IMG/VR virus record: IMGVR_UViG_3300028800_000207 | Location: 1-36,958 of that record | DNA length: 36,958 nt | Reading direction: 5' to 3' (one strand) | DNA from: a virus | Shown here: positions 3,039 to 27,610 of the stretch, piece by piece | How the letters are laid out: every line of letters begins with the position of its first letter | Position numbering within the stretch: the stretch's first letter is position 1 | Made by a program: the position numbers and the translations under genes | Notes under the pieces: generated by a model | Seen by the model: only the letters and a program-made list of their open reading frames with translations | Databases searched by the model: none | Told to the model about the DNA's origin: nothing

Positions 3039-3176
3039 ATGTATGTCTATCAAGATACCCATTGGCATGTTGTGGGGAGTGTTAAGGATTTTGAGTGTTG
3101 GAAGTTACCATGGGGCACCTGCGAAGATAGACATGATGGTGAACCGTGCGACACAGAATGTATTGAGGCACAGTGA
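3039..3176 (+). CDS. Small Cys/His/Trp-rich protein between the terminase genes
   Basis: A 45-aa protein with a strong ribosome site (GAGGAGG just upstream of ATG 3039). The frame is open back to an ATG at 2979 that overlaps the stop of the small terminase, giving 65 aa if translation is coupled. It has four cysteines in the second half (C..C..C..C spread over 22 residues) and several His and Trp residues, so zinc binding is possible. Its stop overlaps the GTG start of the large terminase, so translation of the two is probably coupled. No family recognised. Confidence 0.6.
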   Translation: MYVYQDTHWHVVGSVKDFECWKLPWGTCEDRHDGEPCDTECIEAQ

Positions 3177-4528
3177 AGGTCGAGACCAAAATTCATCTTA
3201 ATCGTTTTGTTCCGCGGTCTTACCAACTTCCTATTATTGATGCTCTTGAGAATAAGGGTTATCGGAAGATTATCTGCATTATGCCCCGACGAGCGGGTAA
3301 AGATGTGGTCGCCTTTAACCTGATGTTACGCGCTGCTTTACGTAAGGTTGGAGTTTATTATTACATTTTCCCAACTTACAGCCAGGCAAAAAAAGTAATT
3401 TGGGATTCGATAAATAATGACGGTCAGAAATTTTTAGACTATATTCCACCAGAGCTTATTGCGGGTTCTAATTCCCAGGAGATGAAGATAACGCTAACCA
3501 ATGGTTCGTTAATGCAACTTGTGGGCTCAGATAACGTGGATAGTTTAGTGGGAACTAACCCGCGCGGTTGTGTTTTTAGTGAGTATGCTCTGCAGGACCC
3601 CAGGGCCTATCAATTTATTAGGCCTATTTTGACAGCTAATGATGGGTGGGCGCTCTTTGTGTCTACTCCTCGTGGCAAGAATCACATGTGGGAGTTGTTT
3701 CAGATTGCGGAGAACTCGCCCGATTGGTTTGCGTACAAGCTTACCCTTGATGATACACAACACATTCCGCTCTGGGCCATTGAGAAAGAAATGGCTGAGG
3801 GCATTATGAGCCCTGATTTGGTTCAGCAGGAGTATTACACCTCATTTACCATGGGCGTTGAAGGGGCTTACTACACCAAGTACATAGACCGTATGCGCGT
3901 CAAGGGACAGATTGGGGATGTGCCTTGGGAACCTAGCTTTAAGGTGCATACTGCATGGGACCTTGGGGTGCGCGATAGTACAACGATTATATTCTTTCAG
4001 AATGTTGGGCAGACTGTTCGCATCATAGACTGCTACGAGAAGTCAAAAGAGGGGCTTGAGCACTATATACAGGTGTTACATTCAAAGCCCTACACGTACG
4101 GGAAGCACATAGCCCCTCATGATATTAAGGTTCGAGAGTTTACTTCTGGGGTAGCTCGTATCGAGAAGGCGCGGCAGCTGGGTATAAACTTCACGATAGC
4201 TCCTGATATATCCATTGTTGATGGCATTGAAGGAGTGCGTTCATCTTTGGCGAAGATATGGATTGATGAGCGTAACTGTAAGCCCCTTATCAAGGCGTTA
4301 GAAAACTATCGGCAAGAGTTTGATGCTAAGCGGCGTGTGTATAAGTCACAACCTTTGCATGATCACAATTCACATTTTGCGGATTGCATGCGCTATTTAT
4401 GTGTGTCACTACCTAAGACACGCGATGGATTGACACCAGAAGAGCTCGATAAGCGGTATATGGAAGCGATGATGGGTCCCAATTACAACATGCCCGCGGT
4501 GTTCCGCACAGATCTACCAGATTATTGA
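3173..4528 (+). CDS. terL: Terminase large subunit
   Basis: A 451-aa packaging ATPase/nuclease that drives DNA into the procapsid through the portal. The adenine motif RSYQLPII lies near residue 16, Walker A MPRRAGKD at 37-44, Walker B GCVFSEYA at 132-139 and the coupling motif VSTPRGKNHMWEL near 180. The C-terminal RNase H-like nuclease begins with AWDLGVRDST and ends with an aspartate in the DCMRYL segment near residue 405. The start is GTG, overlapping the upstream stop. The last 41 codons are repeated almost identically at 5774-5896, beyond an inserted cassette, so the present C-terminus may have been rebuilt. The final residues (AVFRTDLPDY) differ from the second copy (TKW). Confidence 0.95.
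   Translation: MKVETKIHLNRFVPRSYQLPIIDALENKGYRKIICIMPRRAGKDVVAFNLMLRAALRKVGVYYYIFPTYSQAKKVIWDSINNDGQKFLDYIPPELIAGSNSQEMKITLTNGSLMQLVGSDNVDSLVGTNPRGCVFSEYALQDPRAYQFIRPILTANDGWALFVSTPRGKNHMWELFQIAENSPDWFAYKLTLDDTQHIPLWAIEKEMAEGIMSPDLVQQEYYTSFTMGVEGAYYTKYIDRMRVKGQIGDVPWEPSFKVHTAWDLGVRDSTTIIFFQNVGQTVRIIDCYEKSKEGLEHYIQVLHSKPYTYGKHIAPHDIKVREFTSGVARIEKARQLGINFTIAPDISIVDGIEGVRSSLAKIWIDERNCKPLIKALENYRQEFDAKRRVYKSQPLHDHNSHFADCMRYLCVSLPKTRDGLTPEELDKRYMEAMMGPNYNMPAVFRTDLPDY
4386..4495 (+). repeat. Terminase 3'-end duplication, upstream copy
   Basis: This 110-bp segment matches 5775-5884 at 103 positions (seven mismatches). The two copies flank the cassette holding the RHH and alpha-CTD regulators. Six of the seven differences are synonymous in the terminase frame and one is Glu/Asp, so both copies seem to have evolved as coding sequence, probably in related phages, before being brought together. 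Confidence 0.9.
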
Positions 4529-4552
4529 CATCTTGTATATCGTTGATATACT
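4525..4552 (+). promoter_or_regulatory. Strong sigma70-like promoter with palindromic operator
   Basis: A perfect -35 TTGACA (4525-4530) overlaps the terminase stop codon. After 16 bp comes TATACT (4547-4552), a five-of-six match to the -10. A perfect 7-bp inverted repeat GTATATC-gtt-GATATAC (4535-4551) fills the spacer and enters the -10, which suggests repressor or activator control. It would drive the RHH and MerR/alpha-CTD genes, whose products are natural candidates to bind it. The remaining leader to 4853 holds a 28-codon hydrophobic frame without a ribosome site and the weak Cys-rich frame listed next. Confidence 0.65.
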
Positions 4553-4762: not shown

Positions 4763-4897
4763 ATGAAGCTGTGTAAGTCTTGCTTTTGTGAGATAGCTGA
4801 ATATCTCATCTATTGTCACCGGTGCTGGATAGATTATTACGATAAGGAGACTCATGAAAAAACTAGTATCAATACGCATGGATCTCTCAATTCATGA
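4763..4897 (+). CDS. Possible 44-aa zinc-knuckle peptide
   Basis: The frame begins MKLCKSCFCE and has a second CHRC pair at residues 19-22, giving a CxxC...CxxC zinc-ribbon pattern. It overlaps the start of the RHH gene by 44 bases and has only a weak ribosome site. The spacing of cysteines is the only support; it could be a chance frame. Confidence 0.3.
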   Translation: MKLCKSCFCEIAEYLIYCHRCWIDYYDKETHEKTSINTHGSLNS

Positions 4898-5027
4898 CCG
4901 TATTATGCGGATTGTGTATTGGACCCCTGGATTAACATTTAACAAGGTGGTTAACAAGTTATTGGAAGAGTACATAGAGAAGTGTGAGGAGAATAGGGGA
5001 TCGAAGTTTCCTGAGAGGGTTCAGTAG
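4854..5027 (+). CDS. Short ribbon-helix-helix-like protein
   Basis: A 57-aa protein with AAGGAG (4844-4849) at good spacing before ATG. It starts KKLVSIRMDLSIHDRIMRIV, a short strand followed by a helix, then GLTFNKVVNKLLEEYIEKC, resembling the second helix of Arc/MetJ-type repressors that dimerise and insert a strand into DNA. Its TAG is one base before the ATG of the MerR/alpha-CTD gene, so the two are translationally coupled. A role as autorepressor at the palindrome at 4535-4551 is inferred. The fold call rests on pattern only. Confidence 0.65.
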   Translation: MKKLVSIRMDLSIHDRIMRIVYWTPGLTFNKVVNKLLEEYIEKCEENRGSKFPERVQ

Positions 5028-5028
5028 G

Positions 5029-5772
5029 ATGGATAAGCTGAGCGACTATTTGATGGTTAGAGAGGCGGCCGAATTACTTGGAGTCACCCCAAATACCATG
5101 AGAAATTGGGAGAGAGAGAAAAAAATTGTATCCTATCGCAATCCCATCAATAAATACCGCCTCTATAGAAAAGAAGATATTGATAAATTTATGCTGGTCA
5201 TAAAGGGAGAGCCTCCGGTGACTGATGCTGAATTGCAAAACAAAAAAGATAATGAAATAGCGCTTGCGAATCTTTATAAGCGCCAACAAATAGAGGCTGA
5301 TGAATGTGCCAAAAAAGAATTGGCGTCTCGCATGCGACGCATAGAAGAACTTCAAGCATTACTTACTGAAGCAAATAAAGAAATTGAGCGGTATAAACAC
5401 ATAGATAAAGAGCTTGAGAGTTATAAGCTTAAGGAGCGCGAATCGCAGGCAGCCGATCTTTGTGATCAGATACTTAAGATACTTTCTTCTGATGGCTCTT
5501 TTCTGGAAAAAGAAGATTTGTGTAGAAATATCTTGGGAATAAATGCCTCCGCTGGCACTCAGCTTGCCTCAAAAGAGCTCGACAATAGGCCGATAGATAT
5601 ACTCGAACTATCAGTTAGGGCACATAACTGTTTATTAGCTGCTAAATTTAATACTATCGGTGACATACAATGCATGGGAAAAGAGGGTCTGTTGCGCATA
5701 AAGAACTTTGGTAAGAAAAGTTACGAAGAAGTATTGATTGCGTGTCGTAGAAATAAAATAAAGATTAGTTAG
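5029..5772 (+). CDS. MerR-type HTH / coiled-coil / RNA polymerase alpha-CTD fusion regulator
   Basis: A 247-aa protein starting at ATG 5029, one base after the RHH stop; an upstream in-frame ATG at 4984 lies inside the RHH gene and is less likely. Residues 8-55 form a MerR/excisionase-like head (VREAAELLGVTPNTMRNWE, then YRLYRKEDIDKF). Residues 85-145 are a charged coiled coil. Residues 188-247 match the bacterial RNA polymerase alpha-subunit C-terminal domain: ILELSVRAHNCL, then TIGDI, then LLRIKNFGKKSYEE. By alignment from memory with E. coli alpha, R197, N200, G228, K230, S231 and E234 correspond to R265, N268, G296, K298, S299 and E302 (DNA contacts or nearby), and E193 to E261 (sigma contact). 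It may redirect or compete with host polymerase at promoters. The cassette has its own promoter and lies between terminase repeats. Confidence 0.8.
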   Translation: MDKLSDYLMVREAAELLGVTPNTMRNWEREKKIVSYRNPINKYRLYRKEDIDKFMLVIKGEPPVTDAELQNKKDNEIALANLYKRQQIEADECAKKELASRMRRIEELQALLTEANKEIERYKHIDKELESYKLKERESQAADLCDQILKILSSDGSFLEKEDLCRNILGINASAGTQLASKELDNRPIDILELSVRAHNCLLAAKFNTIGDIQCMGKEGLLRIKNFGKKSYEEVLIACRRNKIKIS

Positions 5773-5773
5773 C

Positions 5774-5896
5774 TGCATGCGCTATTTATGTGTTTCTTTA
5801 CCTAAGACACGCGACGGGCTGACACCAGAAGATCTCGATAAGCGGTATATGGAAGCGATGATGGGTCCCAATTACAACATGCCCACTAAGTGGTGA
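5774..5896 (+). pseudogene. Duplicated 3' end of the large terminase gene
   Basis: Forty codons plus stop, in the terminase frame, matching terminase residues from about 405 (CMRYL...) to NYNMP and then ending TKW. There is no start or ribosome site, so it is a remnant. Bases 5775-5884 match 4386-4495 with seven mismatches. It is probably the original terminase end left behind when the 4.5-5.77 kb cassette arrived with a replacement copy, or the reverse. Confidence 0.85.
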
Positions 5897-6014: not shown

Positions 6015-6097
6015 GTGGAACAAAATCGTTCCGCTTGAATCAATAACTGCACGCAACTACTCTTGGTATGTTAAAAACATTGCCAGGAGTCCGTTTA

Positions 6098-8146
6098 ATG
6101 ATCTTCCCCCAGTTGGGCCCCCAATACTACAACGAGAAAGACAAGGCCATCTTATCAAAGATGGAGACGTTTTATGCCGAATCTATCACGATAAATCAGA
6201 GCTTCTGGGGAGAGGCTGACACCGATACTCGGTTTGAGGCTGGAGACCAGACCTTATGGAACGATCTCTATGGCAACCTTCCGGCAAACCGTCGCAGACA
6301 GTTTAATTTCAATCGCATAAGGCGCGTCATCCAGATGATCTCTGGGCACCAGCGACGCAATCGTAAATCTACCATCGTTACTCCCGTTGAGAACGCTGAT
6401 TCTGAGACTGCTGATCAGTTTACTAAAGTATTGATGTGGATTAATAACCAAGAGGGAGTGCTTGAGACCATATCAGAATCCTTCGAAGGCGCACTCGTTA
6501 CCGGTATGAATCTGCTGCAAGTATGGGTAGATTATCGTTCAGACCCCGTTTCAGGAAATATACGTGTCGACAACTGCTCATATAATAGTTTTCTTATTGA
6601 TCCTTACTTCCGTAAGCCAGATCTTTCTGATTGCAACTCCATTTGGAAACGAACCTTCCTAACCAAACGAGAAGTTCTGTCGCTGTTGCCCGCATACACC
6701 GATGAGATTATGGGAATGGTTGGTGGCGATAACGGAACAGGTAGAGACGGTAAATTTCAATTCTTGCCTGAATCTTATAATTACGGCATGAAAAATTTGA
6801 TGACCTATGATGAATTTTATTATAGAGATTATCGCTTGCAGCGTATGTTGGTTGATGCCGAGACTGGCGAGACTATGGAATGGCGCAGTGAGAACGAAGA
6901 AGGCTTACAGCGCTTTCTCAAACTATACCCACAAGTTACCGTTATTGAGCAAGAAATTCCTACGGTGCGCCTCGCTATTGTGGTACAGGGCAAGGTCATG
7001 TATGACGGCCCAAATCCTATGGGTATTGATAGCTATCCTTTCGTGCCTGTGCTTGCTTATTATCGGCCACAAATGCCATATTTTCCCTATCGCATCTCTG
7101 GCGTTGTACGGGGCCTACGGGATGCACAATATCTTTATGGACGAAGAAAAGTGATCGAATTAGACATTTTGGAGAGTCAAATTAACAGTGGGTTCATCTA
7201 TAAAGAGAACGCATTGGTCAATCCAAAAGATATTTTTTTGAGTGGTCAAGGGCGTGGCTTGGCACTTAAAGAAGAAGCCCAAATGACTGATGTTCAGCAG
7301 ATCGTTGCGCCACAGATACCGCCATCTATGATTGATTTATCCAAGATACTTGCTGATGAGATACAACAGATATCTGGAGTTAATGAAGAGCTGCTTGGTT
7401 CAGCGATGGACGATAAGGCGGGGGTGCTGTCGATGCTCAGACAAGGGGCTGGGCTGACTACCCTGCAGTCGCTTTTCGATCAACTGGATCGATCTCAGAA
7501 GCTGTTGGGTAAGATTATGTTGGATATCATACAGGCTAACTTCACACCGGGTAAGGTTAAGAAGATTCTTGAGGGTCAGGAGCCGACGGCTCAGTTCTAT
7601 AACAAAGCTTTTGGGAAGTATGATGCCAATGTTGAAGAGGGGCTTAACACAACGACGCAGAAGCAGATGCAATTTGCCCAGTTACTGCAATTGCGAGAAT
7701 CTGGGGTGCCCGTTCCTGATGAGGCCCTGCTTGAGTCGTGTACCATCCAGAATAAGAAAAAGCTTATTGAATCTATTCAGCAAGCTCAGCAAGCGCAGCA
7801 GCAGGCTGGACAGATGGCTCAACAACTGCAAATGCAAAAGCTGCAAGCGGATATTGAGCTCTCAAAAGCCCGCGCTACTGCGGATCAAGGCCTTGGTCTA
7901 GAGCGCGTATCTCGTGTTGAAGAGAACCAAGCGCTTGCTATAGAGCGTGAAGCCAAGGCGCGCGCTGATGATGACCTTGGATTCCTGAACAAGATTAAGG
8001 CGCTCAAAGAGATTGATGCTATGGACATCGATCATATTGCTCGTTTATTGGAACTTGAGCGTACTCTCAAAGAACAAGACAAGATGGCCCAAGAGGTAAC
8101 AACTCGTGACAAAACGTCACAGGTTAGTCAGCCACTTGTTGCGTAA
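6098..8146 (+). CDS. Portal protein, P22-like
   Basis: A 682-aa portal subunit; twelve copies form the channel at one capsid vertex. AGGAG at 6085-6089 selects ATG 6098 rather than 6068. The region RIRRVIQMISGHQRRNRKS (near residue 75) followed by ETADQFTKVL and the FEGALVTGMNLLQVW segment matches the P22-type portal family, as does the later DPYFRKPDLSD. The C-terminal 120 residues are Gln-rich, then Ala/Glu/Arg-rich, and probably form the long coiled-coil barrel. Length agrees with P22 portal (about 725 aa). It lies downstream of the terminator that closes the upstream cassette. Confidence 0.9.
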   Translation: MIFPQLGPQYYNEKDKAILSKMETFYAESITINQSFWGEADTDTRFEAGDQTLWNDLYGNLPANRRRQFNFNRIRRVIQMISGHQRRNRKSTIVTPVENADSETADQFTKVLMWINNQEGVLETISESFEGALVTGMNLLQVWVDYRSDPVSGNIRVDNCSYNSFLIDPYFRKPDLSDCNSIWKRTFLTKREVLSLLPAYTDEIMGMVGGDNGTGRDGKFQFLPESYNYGMKNLMTYDEFYYRDYRLQRMLVDAETGETMEWRSENEEGLQRFLKLYPQVTVIEQEIPTVRLAIVVQGKVMYDGPNPMGIDSYPFVPVLAYYRPQMPYFPYRISGVVRGLRDAQYLYGRRKVIELDILESQINSGFIYKENALVNPKDIFLSGQGRGLALKEEAQMTDVQQIVAPQIPPSMIDLSKILADEIQQISGVNEELLGSAMDDKAGVLSMLRQGAGLTTLQSLFDQLDRSQKLLGKIMLDIIQANFTPGKVKKILEGQEPTAQFYNKAFGKYDANVEEGLNTTTQKQMQFAQLLQLRESGVPVPDEALLESCTIQNKKKLIESIQQAQQAQQQAGQMAQQLQMQKLQADIELSKARATADQGLGLERVSRVEENQALAIEREAKARADDDLGFLNKIKALKEIDAMDIDHIARLLELERTLKEQDKMAQEVTTRDKTSQVSQPLVA

Positions 8147-23170: not shown

Positions 23171-23974
23171 ATGAAGCCCTGTAAGACCTGTGGTGAACTT
23201 TTTATTGTGAAAAAGAGAAGAATAAAGTTCTGTTCGCAAAAATGCATACGATATGATGGCCCCGATGAGCTAAAGAGGGGAGATCTTTTTCTAAATAAAC
23301 ATGAAGAACTTCAGCGCCTTATGAAGCTATATGATAGGAAAGTTTTAAAGAATCCTGCGGGCTGTTGGTCGTGGATTGATATAAAAAGTGGATATGGAAC
23401 AATAAAGTGCAACAACAAGATAATAAGTGGACATGTTGCTAGTTGGTTGATCAACTATGGAGAAATTCCAGAAGGTATGTGGGTTCTGCATTCATGTGAT
23501 AATAGATCATGTTCAAATCCAACACACTTATTTTTAGGATCGCCTAAGGATAATTCTCGGGACATGATATCCAAAAAAAGAAATAATCCTGTACGTGGAT
23601 CGAAGCATTATAGTGCAAAATTAAATGAGTTACAGGTATCCGAGATTAAAAAATTACTTGAATTAGGTTACTCGCAATATTTAATCTCTAGGCATTATAC
23701 AGTTAGCAGATCATCGATAGAAGATATTAAATTTAAAAGGACTTGGGTAGCAGTTCCTTCAGCACTTAATGTACCTTCTATTGGTAAAACAAAAAAAGAA
23801 TATTTCCAAAGGGGTGAGGATAATTCCTCCTGTAAGCTAGATATACTTAAAGTTCGCGAGATAAGAGAACTTATTTCTGCTGGATGGTCACAACCAAGGA
23901 TAGCTCAAAAATATGGTGTCAGCCGGGGAGCAATTCAGGGTATTAAAGATGGTAGAAACTGGAAGGATGTCTAA
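23171..23974 (+). CDS. HNH homing endonuclease, free-standing, in the tail operon
   Basis: A 267-aa protein. Four cysteines (C4, C7, C21, C25) form an N-terminal zinc finger. Residues 83-135 are an HNH nuclease: SGHVASWLINYGE, VLHSCDNRSCSNPTHL and LGSPKDNSRDM. Two similar helix-turn-helix repeats follow (about 146-188 and 222-265; for example SQPRIAQKYGVSRGAI), probably for target recognition. It is AT-rich compared with its neighbours, and its stop overlaps the next start (TAATG). It probably invades the gap between the nozzle and next tail gene in related phages. Confidence 0.85.
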   Translation: MKPCKTCGELFIVKKRRIKFCSQKCIRYDGPDELKRGDLFLNKHEELQRLMKLYDRKVLKNPAGCWSWIDIKSGYGTIKCNNKIISGHVASWLINYGEIPEGMWVLHSCDNRSCSNPTHLFLGSPKDNSRDMISKKRNNPVRGSKHYSAKLNELQVSEIKKLLELGYSQYLISRHYTVSRSSIEDIKFKRTWVAVPSALNVPSIGKTKKEYFQRGEDNSSCKLDILKVREIRELISAGWSQPRIAQKYGVSRGAIQGIKDGRNWKDV

Positions 23975-26778: not shown

Positions 26779-26886
26779 TCATTCACCCCAAAGCAACTTA
26801 TCCCATCGCACTAGTAGTTTATATATAAATACTGGCGCGATAGTGATAGAAATAATCATTCTGAAGAATCTTGCTAGATCACTCAT
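26779..26886 (-). CDS. 35-aa single-span membrane peptide
   Basis: The frame [20 protein letters not shown] continues into a Trp-rich basic end. One membrane helix (about 9-25) is predicted. Its ATG overlaps the stop of the HNH gene (TATGAGTGA), so it lies in the minus-strand unit RHH-HNH-peptide. No ribosome site beyond the coupling; short length limits confidence. Confidence 0.4.
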
Positions 26887-26896
26887 ATTTTTGCTC
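26879..26896. repeat. Short direct repeat at the HNH insertion (pairs with 27619-27636)
   Basis: Sixteen of 18 bases agree, and both copies encode a C-terminal EQKYE plus stop on the minus strand. They bracket the HNH gene. Confidence 0.6.
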
Positions 26897-27610
26897 ACGT
26901 TGTACTAGTTGCCCCATTTTGTGGAGTTTTCTACTATATTCCTTAACTATGTGAATACTGATCAAGAGCTTTGATGCTATTTCTTTAAGTTTAATTTTAT
27001 CCTTTAGTTCTTTTATTTTTTGCTGATGGCACTCATTTATTATTTTATTGTGTGGCGATACCCCTTTGGGGAATTGTCCTTTCATTCTTCCTTTATTTTT
27101 GGCATCGAGCATGTTTTCTTTTGGTGTTCCTAAAAAAAGATGTGATGGATTAGAGCATATCGGATTGTCGCAATGGTGACACACATATAATCCAGGTTTT
27201 ATTGGGCCATGATGAATAATCCATGATGCCCTATGTGCTCCTATTTTCTTGTTTGTCCCTTGGGAAATAGAGCCATATCCATTCGACATAATTGTACCGC
27301 TCCACCCCCAGCATCCATCTTTAATTATTACATATTGTTCATAGAATTCTTTCATTCTTCTTATTTTTTCTTTTGGTGATATTCGAGAGCCAGTTGTTTT
27401 GCATAATATGGAACAATATTTACCCATACCATTATGTTTATAGTACTCAAACACTATTGAACAAAAAGAGCATGTTGCTTTAATTTTTAAATCAGGATTT
27501 GCCGTGATACTATTTTTTATTCCTAAGCACTTCAAAGAGCAATAAGAGGCCCTTTTTGAGGGCTTACTTTTGAATTCTCGCTGGCAAATTAAACAATTTT
27601 TGGTGATCAT
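26879..27610 (-). CDS. HNH homing endonuclease with two zinc fingers
   Basis: A 243-aa protein. Two Cys4 fingers (about 6-27 and 47-70) precede an HNH domain ([39 protein letters not shown]). A helix-turn-helix-like tail follows ([18 protein letters not shown]). It is related to the endonuclease at 23171 but has an extra finger. Strong AT bias. It lies between the RHH gene and the 35-aa peptide; its final residues EQKYE and stop repeat those of the RHH gene, marking an insertion site. Confidence 0.85.

Follow-up and report, generated by a model that had tools for sequence, protein, structure and literature searches.

A phage protein with an RNA polymerase alpha-CTD behind a MerR-type head and a long coiled coil

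Analysis of the IMG/VR virus record IMGVR_UViG_3300028800_000207, a metagenomic phage of 36,958 nt whose whole length is referred to here as the window, revealed a gene encoding a 247-aa putative regulatory protein (the regulator). This gene is positioned between the terminase large subunit gene and the portal gene, and the region has the following features:

3173..4528, + strand: terminase large subunit gene, left neighbour (PHROG phrog_2, E=3.3e-31)
4525..4552, + strand: predicted sigma70 promoter TTGACA-16-TATACT with an extended -10 TG, overlapping the terminase stop codon (by consensus match only)
4535..4551, strand not assigned: perfect 7-3-7 palindrome GTATATCgttGATATAC inside the predicted promoter, candidate operator
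4854..5027, + strand: 57-aa ORF, ribbon-helix-helix-like by eye, stopping one base ahead of the regulator start
5029..5772, + strand: 247-aa regulator gene (ORF reading)
5029..5208, + strand: MerR/HTH_17 winged-helix head of the regulator, residues 1-60 (Pfam; model pLDDT about 95; Foldseek)
5224..5487, + strand: long helix, predicted coiled coil, residues 66-153 (AlphaFold2 model)
5569..5769, + strand: alpha-CTD tail, residues 181-247 (PF03118; model; Foldseek)
5774..5896, + strand: near-duplicate of the terminase 3' end, directly past the regulator gene (94% over 111 nt)
6068..8146, + strand: P22-like portal gene, right neighbour (PF16510, E=1.2e-70)

A GTG codon at position 4984, upstream of the ATG at 5029, would extend the regulator to 262 aa. 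The ATG was preferred as the start because it lies 1 base past the stop codon of the 57-aa ORF, which itself gave no Pfam match. The predicted promoter agrees with the consensus at 11 of 12 positions and is the sole site in the window that combines an agreement of at least 11/12 with an extended -10. The palindrome sequence occurs only once in the window, where it overlaps both the spacer and the -10 box of the promoter; as an operator it is suggestive only, because perfect 7-bp inverted repeats with spacers of 0-10 occur about 1.1 times per kb. The promoter spacer measures 16 bp; the usual spacer of MerR-activated promoters is 19-20 bp.

Comparison of the two copies of the terminase 3' end showed that six of the seven codon differences are synonymous. 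The terminase has 21 relatives in IMG/VR (52-76% identity). The relatives' terminases end like the first copy (...FRDDLPxY), and the second copy is therefore a remnant of another allele. Its position beside the regulator gene suggests an acquired cassette, and the region appears to have been gained through recombination with a relative.

Pfam analysis of the regulator head (residues 8-58) revealed matches to HTH_17 (E=2.6e-9; 37.6 bits, cut-off 27), MerR (7.2e-8; 32.6 bits, cut-off 28.2) and MerR_1 (4.3e-7), all above the cut-off and in agreement with the MerR-type HTH of the original prediction. A sequence search of the PDB retrieved the MerR-like protein 3qao from Listeria (4.9e-4). The full-length protein was modelled with AlphaFold2 using an alignment of head relatives. 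The model comprised a confident winged-helix head (pLDDT about 95) and a single continuous helix of 88 residues (66-153; pLDDT mostly >88), which supports the coiled coil that had been proposed; the tail was poor in this model because the alignment contained no tail relatives. Searching Foldseek with the full-length model as the query matched the head to HiNmlR, BldC, RacA and Xis with probabilities of 0.99-1.00 and E values of only 0.004 or weaker. In MerR-superfamily and MerR-like HTH proteins (NmlR, BldC, RacA, excisionases), a winged-helix head is likewise followed by a helix. The regulator differs from them in the length of this helix (about 88 residues) and in its C terminus, where the classical MerR effector-binding domain is absent and an alpha-CTD stands in its place. 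The equivalog models of CueR, ZntR and MerR scored far below the cut-off for the regulator. The plan of RacA is a MerR-type head with a long coiled coil, and MerR-like HTH_17 heads also occur in excisionases, as judged by profile matches and by the Foldseek match to Xis.

The tail (residues 181-235) matched PF03118 (RNA_pol_A_CTD) with E=3.7e-18 and 65.4 bits against a cut-off of 23.8. The best match in the PDB sequence search was RpoA from Synechococcus (1.4e-10), and all top matches were RpoA. Residues 170-247 were modelled separately, with alpha-CTDs from the studied loci as alignment rows. The mean pLDDT of this model was 84.9 overall and about 95 across the alpha-CTD domain, and its best Foldseek matches in the PDB were the RpoA chains 9dvu (2.6e-5), 9dvt (3.6e-5, rmsd 1.4 A), 1lb2 and 3n97. 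The predicted C-terminal alpha-CTD-like domain is thus borne out by profile, sequence and structure searches. An unrelated helix-hairpin-helix family with a better score, which had been named as the result that would speak against this domain, did not appear: the Pfam scan of the regulator matched no such family, and the top Foldseek matches in the PDB were alpha-CTDs. NCBIfam RpoA models matched residues 167-240 only, far under their cut-offs. Because the alpha-NTD is absent, the regulator cannot be built into polymerase. The Pfam scan likewise found no sigma domain in the 247 residues, Sigma70_r4 included, and identification of the regulator as a sigma factor was dropped on this ground.

The tail was aligned without gaps to an enterobacterial RpoA CTD (L132). 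This alignment confirmed the earlier residue assignment, with R197, N200, G228, K230, S231 and E234 at the positions of R265, N268, G296, K298, S299 and E302 and with E193 at that of E261. In addition, C201 aligned with C269, so that all seven DNA-contact positions of the 265 determinant (R265, N268, C269, G296, K298, S299, E302) are identical, compared with 15 of the 41 other positions (hypergeometric P=0.002). Some of these residues, e.g., the glycine, may have been retained for the fold rather than for contact. Each of the three other alpha-CTD tails found in the same phage group lacks two or more of the seven residues, and their retention in the regulator is therefore not automatic. Of the two sigma-contact acids examined, E261 is kept as E193 and D259 is replaced by isoleucine (I191), a change absent from the original prediction. 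The D259 position is occupied by E in Chlamydiota RpoA, or by D in 1 of 13, and cyanobacterial RpoA has Q at position 261. The 287 determinant is not conserved in the tail. Bacterial RpoA CTDs thus share the fold and all seven DNA-contact residues with the regulator, which differs from RpoA by the missing alpha-NTD, the missing D259 equivalent and a shorter tail past helix 4. By identity, the nearest RpoA is cyanobacterial (53%, versus 45-51% for Chlamydiota). No donor of the tail is claimed, as a tree of 24 CTDs was long-branched and unresolved.

These results give good support to the conclusion that one phage protein combines a genuine alpha-CTD with a MerR-type head and a long coiled coil. 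Heads of the regulator's family nearly always stand alone in the phage group. Such stand-alone HTH_17 proteins, from the same phage group and from Chlamydiota, have 60-75 aa and are up to about 61-69% identical to the head, but they carry neither coil nor alpha-CTD. Of the 95 viral records that were searched, 4 contain an alpha-CTD above the cut-off, one of them being the window. The other three proteins (L005, 153 aa, likewise encoded between terminase and portal; L025, 94 aa; L116, 141 aa) have N-terminal parts that all differ, and a protein with all three of head, coil and tail occurs in the window alone among the 95 records. No full-length relative emerged when IMG/VR and GTDB genomes were scanned for peptide patterns, a method that detects close relatives only, or when phages and plasmids were searched by tblastn. 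The alpha-CTDs proved too divergent for their joint alignment to serve as a search query.

Alpha-CTD proteins of other phages have been annotated already, namely QDP42789 of Bacillus phage Goe8 (PF03118, 4.3e-22) and proteins of uncultured Caudovirales annotated "RNA polymerase, alpha subunit, C-terminal". Gp24 of Atraxi and gp26 of Mazun, two Microbacterium phages, are annotated merely as DNA binding proteins and exceed the PF03118 cut-off. All these proteins resemble the regulator in their C-terminal alpha-CTD and differ from it in their N-terminal domains, which are mostly unrecognised; none of those scanned matched HTH_17 or MerR. Two proteins from gut-phage contigs combine HTH_17, sigma70 region 4 and an alpha-CTD:

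MT835636.1, 8923-9921 (L233): gut-phage fusion gene, 331 aa
MT837876.1, 948-1856 (L235): gut-phage fusion gene, 302 aa

They share head and tail with the regulator and differ in having sigma70 region 4 between the two. The likeness is at the domain level only (BLASTP identity 45% over 38 aa in the tail and 30% over 43 aa in the head). The original remark that no described phage regulator with this domain order was known applies only in a narrow sense: annotated phage alpha-CTD proteins exist, and the two gut-phage contigs encode HTH_17 and an alpha-CTD together with sigma region 4. What is new is the head-coil-tail combination, and phage alpha-CTD proteins in general are known but uncharacterised. 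Our search returned no papers on phage alpha-CTD fusions, which is weak evidence as most subscription journals lay outside it.

A related portal is encoded in >550 IMG/VR stretches. A portal pattern scan of GTDB retrieved one Parachlamydia bin and one Methanomicrobiales bin, and 10 of 234 Chlamydiota genomes contained a portal match (3 of them strong). Most of the portal-bearing Chlamydiota contigs are phage-sized (5-41 kb), with one weak fragment on a 125-kb contig, and the Chlamydiota link is therefore evidence from binning, not from integration. Chlamydiota genomes also encode relatives of the regulator head with 45-61% identity, some of which adjoin serine recombinase-like ORFs (by eye). 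Judged from these sequence matches, the host is likely a member of the Chlamydiota.

Everything beyond the domain anatomy we infer. The DNA recognised by alpha-CTD is A/T-rich and lies at -40 to -60, and Arg265 is required for UP-element and activator contact (PMC2988021). Because the DNA-contact surface of the tail is intact, it is plausible that the regulator docks at promoters. Our tentative preference, which we regard as quite possible, is that it acts as a DNA-tethered alpha-CTD controlling transcription, most likely as an activator. The regulator would dimerise through its coiled coil and bind a specific operator with its head, and the flexibly linked alpha-CTD would bind the A/T-rich minor groove beside a -35 box and touch sigma region 4. 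In this way, host RNA polymerase might be helped onto promoters without a good UP element by an alpha-CTD supplied in trans, from outside the polymerase. The regulator probably also controls the predicted promoter of its own cassette. The domain evidence, the seven contact residues, the E261 equivalent and the sigma70-type predicted promoter of its own count for this reading, as do the independent HTH_17-sigma region 4-alpha-CTD proteins of gut phages. Alpha-CTD tails also recur on differing N-terminal domains in the phage group, which would be expected if the alpha-CTD were a polymerase-facing module open to reuse. The replacement of D259 by isoleucine, the position of the candidate operator in a 16-bp spacer and the occurrence of the fusion in one contig count against it.

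The main rival to activation is a competing or repressing role, in which the tail occupies UP elements or the surfaces of activators that bind host alpha-CTD and so shuts or delays host or phage promoters. A tail whose DNA surface is intact but whose sigma patch is weakened fits binding without recruitment, a candidate operator over the spacer and the -10 box is in a repressing position, and there are precedents for phages acting on alpha-CTD function, such as T4, whose Alt and ModA modify Arg265 of alpha (PMC2988021). A global competitor, however, needs neither a specific head nor a long coil, and we consider this role unlikely on balance. We rate it as less probable still that the alpha-CTD is merely a second DNA-binding domain, with which the regulator would bridge or organise DNA in the manner of RacA, leaving polymerase untouched. 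RacA is among the Foldseek matches of the head and has the same head and coiled-coil plan, and the excisionases, too, have such heads; a general DNA binder, though, need not keep E261, nor need its tail be an alpha-CTD over any other helix-hairpin-helix domain.

Two further explanations are rated lower again. A free alpha-CTD could serve as a decoy that soaks up a host or rival-phage factor binding host alpha-CTD, which is a frequent target (PMC2988021, PMC8321222), but this leaves the specific DNA-binding head unexplained and the 287 determinant is not conserved; such a role is improbable. It is very improbable that the gene is an assembly chimera or has decayed and lost its function: despite the single contig and the 94% terminase duplicate at the right border, the ORF is intact and free of long internal repeats, both domains score far above the cut-off, and the duplicate lies outside the ORF.

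If the tail works as in the tethered alpha-CTD model, a promoter-reading domain has been detached from RNA polymerase and attached to a DNA-binding protein of the phage. This would be a route of takeover unlike modifying alpha (as T4 does), blocking sigma or encoding a new sigma, and a functional regulator could steer host polymerase toward or away from chosen promoters. It would also provide a test case for which alpha-CTD contacts suffice for recruiting polymerase in trans. More speculatively, and with some doubt on our part, Chlamydiota phages may repeatedly attach a host-type alpha-CTD to their own DNA-binding proteins, placing a free polymerase-recruiting module at phage promoters. The same doubt applies to the idea that this module would act apart from the polymerase's own alpha subunits, as a natural counterpart of engineered alpha-CTD chimeras. 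The regulator also hints at a larger group of phage alpha-CTD proteins that are as yet unstudied.

Several minor observations were made in the searched records. In each gut-phage fusion, a single chain unites domains for reading DNA, the -35 box and the UP element, and one of their contigs also has tyrosine-recombinase-like and terminase-like ORFs (both by eye). A Chryseobacterium plasmid encodes a protein with sigma region 4 and an alpha-CTD. Many "phage" tblastn matches to the tail were rejected because they resemble bacterial rpoA whose records are mislabelled. Bacterial rpoA is present in MT837142, MT837710, MT839982, AFYI01000003, AGRM01000003, CAKLQH020000003 and CAKLQF020000004, which are filed as phage; the three inspected have ribosomal-protein-like neighbours, and these records are probably host DNA or misfiled genomes.

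The small genes in the terminase-portal gap vary among the relatives, and some ORFs in it resemble HNH endonucleases by eye. In L008 (4104-5143), the first 41-48 terminase codons occur twice with an HNH-like ORF between them (by eye; no Pfam match), a 5' duplication that parallels the terminase duplicate beside the cassette of the window. The gaps of L008, L012, L014, L015 and L019 encode small proteins that are rich in cysteine and in which the motif G(K/R)xFGxWTII...CxCGT recurs; these proteins stand alone or are fused to HNH-like parts (by eye). Four terminase ORFs of relatives are oversized and contain intein-splicing domains in frame (L017, 3798-6875; L018, 1828-4269; L022, 941-3277; L097, 5447-7639). 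The intein-splicing family PF14890 scored above the cut-off in L017 and L097, and L017 apparently has two Hint-type stretches.

No RNA families or tRNAs were found in the window. Its late region contains two HNH endonuclease genes with PHROG matches (23171-23974 and 26879-27610 (-)). At 1131-1236, CGGAGTAACTA is directly repeated five to six times in what looks like an iteron-type origin, immediately ahead of a replication-initiator-like gene (1240-2064).
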